From the NCBI RefSeq assembly GCF_021134715.1, contig NC_060019.1:10926001-10990000 (forward strand): a DNA stretch of 64,000 nucleotides, written 5' to 3'. Shown here piece by piece: positions 27,168-36,300 of the stretch; within the stretch, counting starts at the first letter, position 1; each line of letters opens with the position of its first letter. Below the pieces are notes generated by a model. It was not told the DNA's origin. It saw nothing but the letters and a program-made list of their open reading frames with translations, and made no database searches. Both the position numbers and the translations under genes were made by a program. The DNA is from Daphnia pulex (taxonomy: Eukaryota > Arthropoda > Branchiopoda > Diplostraca > Daphniidae).

Positions 27168-27397
27168 ATGGATCAGTGGCTCCTGTCGTGGACGGTGGCC
27201 TTGCCAGGCACCTTTTGGGCCCTGCTGATTCCGGTCGCCACTTGCGCCATCCTCATCTACGCGATTGAAAGGGAAAACAACAGCGGCAACTCGAGAGAGT
27301 ATCGCCATTCGGTTCGCAAACAGCGTCAATTCGCCGTCACCTCATCATCGGTGATTGTCGTCGTGGAAGATGTCGCTGACGAGCTCGACTCCGCCAA
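27168..27397 (+). CDS. SRPK: SRPK first exon A, encodes a transmembrane segment
   Basis: ATG at 27168 opens 76 codons and two bases, ending GCC AA|gtaagt. Joined to the acceptor at 34601 the next codon is AAG, continuing NDVKGSIS in frame; the protein would be 684 residues. Residues 9-33 ([20 protein letters not shown] and on) form one clear hydrophobic helix, followed by a basic and polar stretch. If used, it would make a membrane-anchored SRPK with its kinase domain on one side of a membrane. The strong donor, codon quality and matching phase support the exon; transcription evidence is missing. A longer start upstream would need a non-ATG codon. The intron to the body would be about 7.2 kb. 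Confidence 0.6.
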
Positions 27398-33300: not shown

Positions 33301-36300
33301 GATTCGGATTCATTGGATCCTGCGGCCGTTGAAGACGATCACGATCGCCTTTTCATTGGAGTCTTGGATTCGGGCCGTCTCTTGGGTTTGCCCGCCGAGC
33401 CGGCCCTCTGCGCCGTCACGTATCAGGAAGAATTGGAAGAGGCAGAAGAAGACGTGTCGATGCAACTCTGCGATGTGACTTCACTTTCGTCGGATGGATG
33501 TTGGTCCTCGTCTGGCGCTGCGGAGTCATTGGCCGTGACTGGGCGAGAATCCCCACTCCATCCAACTCTTTTGATCTGTTCCCCGTTGACTGCCTGCTAT
33601 GTCTGCCGGCCTGATGGAAATAACAACAACAATAGCAGCAGCAGCAGCAGCAGTGCCAGTACGAGCGACTCGGATGAATTCGAATTTCGATCGATTTCGA
33701 GCGCCCGATCATTCGCAACGGCCCCCTCATCCATGTCGATTTCGTTTAGCGATGCCGTGTCTGATTGTTCATGGGAATTCGATACTGCCAGCAGCGGGTG
33801 AGTTGTGCCTTTGGTCGGTTCCCATTTTGAATTTCAAATGGAACATAATGGATCGATTCAGAACAGCCATCATTCGATCCGGCATGTTGTTGTATATATG
33901 TACTCTGAGTCCGCTCCGAGTTTTCTTTTGGCTGGATGACATCCGGGTGGCGAAGCGACGATGCGACAAAGGAACGCCTTTTCCCCCACTACACACACAC
34001 ACACCCTCACATCTCTCGCTCTTGTTTGTATCGATTTGTTGAGTCGACGACGTCCTCTACATGTTTCCTTGACGCTAAAAGAGACGGTGGTTGTTTGGGC
34101 TGGTCCCGTTTTGAGTCGTGACAATCCCACCTGCCGCTGTTTGGATCCAGTGGATCTGACCTTCGCTTTGTTGTCGTTTCGGGTACAACATGACCACGGC
34201 GGCGGGCTGATGGGTAACAAGGCGAAGCATAACCAAGTTATCGATTGATGGAATTGCTTAAAGGGGCGGACGTCGGGGCGAATTGTGTGCGGCACGGAGC
34301 GAAGGAAAATGAGGTTAATGTTGTATGATAGTAGCGTACACCACCACCATCAGAGATAGCCGATTCAACGAATCGCTGCCCAGTCTCCCTCCTTAGCTGA
34401 TTGCTATCCCTTATCACGAAAAGCTGATAAGGCCAACAGCTGATTTGTGATTAAATGATCTTCCATCCGCCTTCCCGTTGCCCAATCACGAGTTGAGCGC
34501 CTCATCTGACGTGGCCATCGCCGATCTCTACGCGTTTTTTTTTTTTTTCTATTCTTGCGGTATTGATGATGTGTATTGGTTTTCTCTTTGGCTGTTGTAG
34601 GAACGATGTCAAAGGATCCATTTCCGAAACGCTCGATGAAGACGAAGAGATCCTCGGCTCCGATGATGACGAACAAGAAGATCCAAGGGATTACACCAAA
34701 GGTAAAGTAAAGCAAGAGGCAGAGCCAGAGCTTTTGTGCTTTTAATGTCGGGTGGTGTGTGCGTGCCCAGCTGGTTGGTTGGTAGAACATTATCGATCAG
34801 CATCATTGACTCTTTTTCTTTTTTCCACCCTATATCTTTTCTGTTTTCCCCTGTGAATCCTACCTGATCCAGCTTTCAAGTTTGGGCATGCCATACCATC
34901 GATTTCTACTCCATATTCCCTGCGGATCCATTTCATTCGATTCCTTTCCAACTTTCGTTGTTCTTGTCGTTATTTATTTGGTTTTCTTTTTTGTTTCTTT
35001 CATTTTTTTCCAGGTGGTTACCATCCGGTGAAAATCGGCGATCTCTTTCACAATCGATACCATGTCGTGCGCAAGTTGGGCTGGGGCCATTTCTCCACCG
35101 TCTGGCTCTGCTGGGACTTGGTGTCAGTTATTATTTCACGATTCTATTTTGATTTCATTTTTCTGATTCGGATCATGTCTGGTGTTCGTGCCATCTCCTC
35201 ATATTCTCATGGCTTCTCCCTTTTCTTTTTTTATTTATTTATTTTCATACAGGGCGAAACGGTTTGTGGCGCTCAAGGTGGTCAAGAGCGCGTCGCATTA
35301 CACGGAGACGGCGCTGGACGAGATCAAGTTGCTCCGTTGCGTACGCGAGAGCGACGAAACGGACCCGAAACGCGAGAAGACGGTCCAGCTTCTTGATGAT
35401 TTTAAGATCAGCGGCATTAATGGCACGCACGTCTGTATGGTCTTTGAAGTGCTCGGTCACAATCTTCTCAAACTCATCATACGCAGCCAGTACCAAGGCA
35501 TTCCTCTGCTCAACGTCAAGACCATCATCCGCCAGGTTTGATATCGACGCAGTCATGTGGAAGATTATCGATTTCTTAATTGATTGTTTTCTTCTCGTAC
35601 AGGTTCTCGAAGGTTTGGACTATTTGCACACCAAGTGTCGCATCATCCACACGGACATCAAACCCGAGAACATTTTGATCTGCGTCGATGAGCCATTCAT
35701 TCGGAAACTCGCAGCCGACGCTACCCAGTGGCACAAGATGGGCATGAAACTCCCCGGTTCTTTAGGTATTATTCCCAGCAATATCCTCATGTGAAATTAT
35801 ACGTTTTTGGTACGTGTTGGCTCTCCTTGGCGTTTCTGGTCGTCGTCGTGTAAACGGGACGTGCCGATCTCGTTTGGCTAAGCTATTGGAGTGGTTCATT
35901 TGTCGTTTTCGACTTTCTTTTTCTGTTGGTTCGTTTCCTTTGTCTTGTGATTTCTGTTGTTCCCTTTTAGACGTGGGCAGACGCCTGTTGTTGTGGAGTG
36001 TTTATAGCGTTTTCCACCGTCTTTAATTCTTTGCTGCTTCCTTACATTGCAGTGAGTACGGCGCCCAAAGAACTGCAGTCTACCAATACGACCAACATGT
36101 CAAAAAGCAAGAAGAAGAAGATGAAAAAGAAGGCCAAAAAGAAGGCGGAGTTACTGGAAAAGCAGCTCCAGCAATTGGAGGAGCTGGAAGAGAATCTCCA
36201 GATTAACGGTATGGAATTCCGTCCGTCTCTTTTTGAATAAAGTTCCATTTTCTAGGCATTTTAGGGAAGAAATTTGCATTTGCGAAACGAAACGCCGAGT

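Follow-up and report, generated by a model that had tools for sequence, protein, structure and literature searches.

An SRPK gene of Daphnia pulex appears, as predicted from its sequence, to begin its protein in three ways. Three ATG-initiated first exons (A, B and C) encode unrelated N-termini, and all are read in frame into one kinase body through the acceptor at 34601. The gene lies in the window, which is the whole stretch of 64,000 nucleotides that was analysed (C3:10926001-10990000). The locus holds open frames in a common phase with their donors, an inverted duplicate (copy 2), a decayed ordinary start, and copy-to-copy changes that are nearly all silent. The preferred reading is a duplicated SRPK with starts B, C and probably A, with membrane anchors in A and C, and with the starts shared out between the two copies (probability about 0.6). 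That two unrelated N-terminal anchors tether an SRPK, and that duplication and conversion have split soluble from tethered or scaffold-docked starts, is more tentative.

Description of the kinase body

The kinase body of the window is assigned to SRPK by sequence similarity. Among the best 60 of 63 matches to solved structures, its 94-residue exon gives SRPK2 and SRPK1 chains at 2e-43 to 9e-42, yeast Sky1 at 2e-19, and DYRK and CLK at 5e-8 or worse. The spliced protein has a kinase domain split by a Lys-rich spacer, with catalytic signatures on both sides that we take to be those of SRPK. The first Met of the shared body falls within the kinase domain; the body therefore needs an upstream start. 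Features of the locus are listed in Table 1.

Table 1. Coordinates of exons, exon remnants and other features of the SRPK locus (window positions).
Feature	Position	Strand	Remarks
Ordinary first coding exon, remnant	25722-25755	+	MSVIKNDTNFR; GTGAGT donor kept; aligned to copy-2 11036141-11036108
Ordinary second coding exon, remnant	25889-25991	+	Diverged; in-frame TAG at 25942-25944
Block upstream of exon A, common with copy 2	26899-27100	+	~64% identity; blastn E 3e-12; two CACGTG boxes
Exon A	27168-27397	+	230 bases; 76 codons; ATG start; phase-2 donor CAA/GTAAGT
Short candidate first exon (fourth)	28038-28153	+	38 codons; hydrophobic; phase-2 donor 6.33; insertion energy +1.07
Exon B	28428-29956	+	1529 bases; 509 whole codons; ATG start; phase-2 donor CAG/GTAAAA
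Exon C	32884-33797	+	914 bases; 304 whole codons; ATG start; phase-2 donor CGG/GTGAGT
Shared acceptor exon	34601-34701	+	Copy-2 homology starts at its AG
Remaining ten body exons	35014-38040	+	To stop codon; spliced model
Body exons, first five of these	35014-35122, 35253-35535, 35603-35765, 36053-36208, 36694-36786	+	Spliced model
Body exons, last five of these	36856-36984, 37051-37184, 37253-37523, 37592-37875, 37939-38040	+	Spliced model

Description of the predicted first exons

The lengths of A, B and C leave a remainder of 2 in every case. Donor scores are 5.64 (A), 3.90 (B) and 5.88 (C), on a matrix that gives -2.63 to 5.94 for the ten donors within the kinase body. Spliced in the model to the 11-exon body, the three exons yield intact, uninterrupted SRPKs of 684 (A), 1117 (B) and 912 (C) residues with a common stop that ends at 38040. 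The coordinates, phase, donors and in-frame fit to 34601 given by the first-pass annotation are thus reproduced, as are its three distinct N-termini; the sizes of two of these are corrected, from 510 to 509 whole codons for B and from 305 to 304 for C.

To count as a candidate, a frame had to run from an ATG over 40 codons or more to a donor that scores no lower than that of B. Between 25601 and 34600 there are exactly three such frames in phase 2, namely A, B and C. At the same thresholds this interval has none in phase 0 and none in any phase of the reverse strand. Phase 1 adds two (29830-29956 and 33599-33797), which share their donors with B and C, respectively. The short candidate upstream of exon B emerges once the length limit is lowered, and its donor is the best of the four; it is possibly a fourth first exon or a chance frame, with no other support.

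That exon B, and perhaps C, belongs to an independent gene that ends near the apparent donor and is not joined to the kinase is quite improbable. Such a gene would fit the AATAAA at 30028, 72 bases past exon B, which is counted against the best explanation. It would also fit the frame ends: wherever GTAA or GTGA follows a phase-2 exon, the frame reads XXG-TAA or XXG-TGA, a mimic of a stop codon, so that ending at the donor is partly built in. However, all three exons share phase 2 and have good donors, the equivalents on the reverse strand and in phase 0 are lacking while the two phase-1 frames fall on donors that B and C use, and once A, B and C are removed the window kinase is left with no obvious start.

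Length and composition favour coding in different degrees. Fourteen random 10-kb stretches, both strands included, contain 13 frames of this type with at least 76 codons, summed over three phases, a background of 0.14 per 9 kb per phase that includes real genes. When the local sequence is resampled with a Markov model, an exon as long as A turns up 14 times in 3000 trials (510 bases), one as long as B never in 500, and one as long as C never in 1000. GC3 is 0.72 in A, 0.63 in B and 0.60 in C, against 0.64 in the kinase body; the GC content of non-coding DNA around the locus is ~0.45. Of 149 stop-free non-coding windows 2 reach the codon score of A, and of 3092 windows 11 reach that of C; the windows overlap. 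The score favours the given frame for A and B, and for A this frame is the best of all six; for C one reverse frame (0.189) beats the coding frame (0.137). Codon usage is weak support, and the model separates long ORFs poorly (left-out training frames, presumed genes, range from -0.07 to 0.22 bits per codon). By frame counts, resampling, GC3, codon score and the motifs of exon B described below, a coding role is very likely for B and C, and likely for A.

Exon A is the weakest of the three. It could be a frame that is open by chance, within the 5' portion of a long first intron, with only B and C real; this is unlikely, yet it carries real weight. The exon is short, its length lies within reach of the background rate and of the resampling given above, its start has T at -3, and its hydrophobicity is matched by 11 of 174 random ORFs of 60-100 codons. 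Against chance stand its consensus GTAAGT donor, the right phase, the top score among six frames, the highest GC3 of the three, and its place next to a block retained in copy 2. The three-first-exon reading of the first-pass annotation is accordingly supported by computation for B and C and less strongly for A, and it is to be completed by an ordinary SRPK N-terminus that also lies at the locus in decayed form.

Searches for relatives are empty. In the own genome, among the best candidates scored, no clear match to A or C is found (best other E 0.19 for A, 0.11 for C), and for B nothing up to E 1. Exon B has no relative in genome_contigs or viral_contigs, and exon C none in viral_contigs. Pfam returns 0 families for A, B, C and one kinase-exon frame; the result says little because the kinase-exon frame, too, gave none.

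Predicted membrane helices and the arm of exon B

Exons A and C each carry one predicted membrane helix, by insertion energy and by AlphaFold2. The helices lie at residues 11-33 in A (energy -1.12) and 75-97 in C (-1.19), in keeping with the membrane helices proposed earlier for these exons. The energy scale was checked on one glycophorin A helix (-1.93). Energies elsewhere are +4.01 in B, +2.2 in the kinase body and +8.53 in the ordinary N-terminus of copy 2. Residue shuffles reach the real energy in 1 of 400 cases for A and likewise in 1 of 400 for C. Single-sequence AlphaFold2 gives A a helix at 3-52, with pLDDT 93 in the hydrophobic core and 66 as the overall mean. For C it gives one confident helix at 76-104 (10-residue block means 86 and 90), and 241 of 304 residues with pLDDT below 50.

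The flanks of the helix in A are uneven: the 25 residues after it hold 6 Lys/Arg and 3 acids, those before it 0 and 1. This bias favours, as far as sequence can tell, an N-terminus outside and a cytosolic kinase. In C the near count, taken over 15 residues on each side (Lys/Arg 2 before and 1 after; acids 2 before and none after), gives no support to this orientation; the 30 residues after the helix, with 5 Lys/Arg and no acid, favour it at that range only. The first 74 residues of C contain 4 Cys and 2 sequons. Sequons are common here, with four in the helix-free B and two more in C on the predicted cytosolic side.

All three exons could be real while the hydrophobic stretches of A and C are no anchors, or are cleaved or buried, so that every isoform is soluble. 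This alternative is doubtful rather than negligible. The energies are moderately negative beside that of glycophorin A, the best hydrophobic stretch of C includes two Arg and a Pro, and the near charge balance of C points no single way; but shuffles of the exons' own residues seldom equal A or C, and the charge bias of A and the distal basic cluster of C agree with a cytosolic kinase. Anchors in A and C are retained in the preferred reading as predicted.

Exon B is of a different kind. It has 32% Ser/Thr/Pro and no predicted membrane helix. It contains four [RK]xLPxP motifs, a number reached in 0 of 5000 residue shuffles, the motif having been picked after inspection of the sequence. One of them, RKLPVPP, fits the class I +xPsiPxxP form. 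RIM-binding-protein SH3 domains use this class I form on Drosophila Aplip1, with a peptide that contains RKLPEIP, according to the portion of the report consulted (PMC4536467). By analogy, docking of exon B by RIM-binding-protein SH3 domains may be taken as a lead.

Inverted duplicate and surroundings

A counterpart of the 94-residue kinase exon, with 100% identity over these residues, lies on the opposite strand at a distance of 72 kb. The duplicated segment, in pieces, comprises at least window 21953-49811 against C3:11043261-11017972. The SRPK body of copy 2 is ~98% identical to that of the window, introns included. Along the duplicate, identity is 93% in the first shared exon, 98% at 34784-40247 and 91% at 40245-47534, and 71-87% in pieces upstream of the SRPK exons (13-29% of sites differ). 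In introns 2-10 there are 28 differences over 1302 aligned sites, and in intron 1 there are 19 over 232. The step from 98% to 91% over window 34784-47534, which pairs with C3:11034435-11021611, is likely a gene-conversion tract over the SRPK body.

These identity levels agree with an inverted duplication that is old, and with gene conversion that has apparently renewed the kinase body since. The mosaic identity makes an assembly artefact less likely.

The start of copy 2 is made up of two small exons, MSSIKSDTNRRVLAIQAKKKRYKNSNKGKGRPREKETREEDSNKKDKRPTTKPTVR, spliced in phase 2 to the shared exon. Its spliced protein has 664 residues and no internal stop. The start is an ordinary basic SRPK N-terminus; the RVLAIQAKKKR-type N-termini of copy 2 and of the window remnant presumably resemble that of human SRPK1. 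In the window, a weak phase-2 donor (GAG/GTACAA, GT at 25917) precedes the TAG of the ordinary second exon and could allow a shortened form of the ordinary N-terminus to be made.

Exons A, B and C are absent from copy 2, both by locus alignment and by whole-genome search. The copy-2 intron resembles the window at 26125-26252 and 26899-27100, the latter being the last homology before the stretch missing from copy 2; past ~27100 and up to the acceptor it has nothing window-like above 20 shuffled controls. A 26-base block at 26997-27022, with two CACGTG boxes, shows one difference from copy 2 (11034851-11034826) in surroundings ~64% alike. Each copy thus lacks a start kept by the other: copy 2 is without A-C, and the ordinary exon of the window has a stop. 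Most simply, copy 2 lost ~7.5 kb holding A-C; a gain of A-C in the window copy is less simple.

Upstream, the stretch 22252-24896 was considered as another SRPK first exon and rejected. By its motifs, it is probably part of a neighbouring PI 3-kinase-like gene. It looks like a decayed remnant, with frame-shifting gaps relative to copy 2. Forward frames within 22200-24900 do not exceed 118 residues; those of the copy-2 side reach 170. Further up on the copy-2 side, a PI3K_C2 Pfam match scores 22.6 bits, under the cut-off of 26.4. The stretch ~24960-25550 is rich in CCCGGG and ACCCG words and looks like a mobile element; 24897-25707 has no alignment to the duplicate.

A third SRPK is found at G000:C11:3949513-3951416 (L007), 66% over one exon and with long uninterrupted coding frames. 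Its apparent start is a short basic exon, MGKKVTKKS, the only candidate in the 2.5 kb upstream.

Apparent selection on the window copy

Over 607 aligned codons, the copies are separated by 13 substitutions, of which 12 are silent and 1 is a replacement, and by one codon indel. The sole replacement is Asp/Glu in the acidic tail, and the indel lies in the same tail. With the window copy neutral and copy 2 selected, the probability of at most one replacement among 13 is 3e-5, or 1e-4 with transitions weighted double. The first shared exon holds 5 of the 12 silent changes; without that exon the values are 0.004 and 0.008. The 11 body exons of the window copy have no frame or splice-site damage, and the body looks to be under selection. 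Because the ordinary start is broken, the shared body has no early Met and the body looks selected, it is argued indirectly that the window SRPK is used through A, B or C.

It may be that a dying window copy was restored by gene conversion, and given conversion these P values overstate the case for a live one, which is softer than they suggest. The window SRPK would then be a decaying duplicate with a broken start, a body kept alike by conversion from copy 2, and A-C as relics. This is improbable. The in-frame stop in the ordinary exon and the conversion-like identity profile (introns 2-10, intron 1 and upstream pieces as given above) agree with it; the undamaged 11 exons, the 12 silent changes among 13 substitutions, and the long and open frames of B and C do not. 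A living window copy is kept in the preferred reading.

Proposed mechanism

In this reading the window gene can begin at alternative first exons, B and C at least and probably A as well; each would have a promoter of its own and be spliced to 34601. Alternative promoters would select the first exon. Isoforms A and C would carry one membrane helix before the kinase and would keep SRPK on a membrane, away from the nucleus; most likely their N-terminus would face outward or into a lumen, and the kinase would face the cytosol. Isoform B would add a long disordered arm, whose repeated RxLPxP motifs, SH3-ligand-like, would attach the kinase to a scaffold. The ordinary soluble start would have been lost from the window copy and kept by the inverted duplicate, and A-C lost from the duplicate. 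The two genes would then divide the starts of an ancestral gene, with gene conversion holding the kinase bodies alike; the ancestral order is itself presumed.

SRPKs decide where SR proteins are phosphorylated, and hence their nuclear entry. Membrane-held isoforms, if true, would place this switch at a membrane, for example near membrane-protein substrates or synapses. The duplicate pair would be a natural experiment on the effect of location alone, with one kinase body and two sets of starts. If the reading is true, the locus shows how starts part after duplication while the shared body stays near-identical.

Comparison with known systems

Placement of an SRPK by alternative promoters is known. 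In Drosophila Srpk79D, alternative promoters give unrelated N-termini that direct location, with PC/PF at active zones and PB in cell bodies, in the sections available of the two reports (PMC2759580, PMC2737616). Isoforms with either N-terminus rescued, without clear functional difference, in the excerpt of one report (PMC2759580), and the PB-type N-terminus gave no rescue in that of the other (PMC2737616). Rescue by either N-terminus, as far as that excerpt describes it, speaks against a strong role for location. The window gene is like Srpk79D (PB/PE versus PC/PF) in having, at the level of sequence, one SRPK body with unrelated N-termini. It is unlike Srpk79D, as portrayed in these excerpts, in that Srpk79D has two N-termini, neither described as membrane-spanning, and no duplicates that divide the starts.

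The first-pass annotation had proposed a new way to place this kinase. Because Srpk79D already shows placement by alternative promoters, the novelty narrows to the membrane anchor. Among the matches listed in the open-licence literature, in titles and the beginnings of abstracts, no membrane-spanning SRPK isoform and no Daphnia SRPK is found, and the portion seen of a review of SRPKs makes no mention of a membrane-spanning one (PMC10952393). What would be new, as predicted, is that an SRPK has membrane anchors and that duplicates divide the starts; of these the anchors are the least proven part.

With SRPK1 and SRPK2 the window gene has the kinase body in common, whereas A, B and C wholly replace the ordinary basic N-terminus. 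Duplicates that each retain one alternative form of a single ancestral gene are described for fungal SKI7/HBS1 in the available part of PMC3597508, and fish mitf, cited there, likewise has duplicates that divide alternative forms. The SRPK pair resembles mitf and SKI7/HBS1, as far as that text presents them, in the parting of alternative forms between duplicates; it differs in that its members are inverted neighbours with a body apparently homogenised by conversion.
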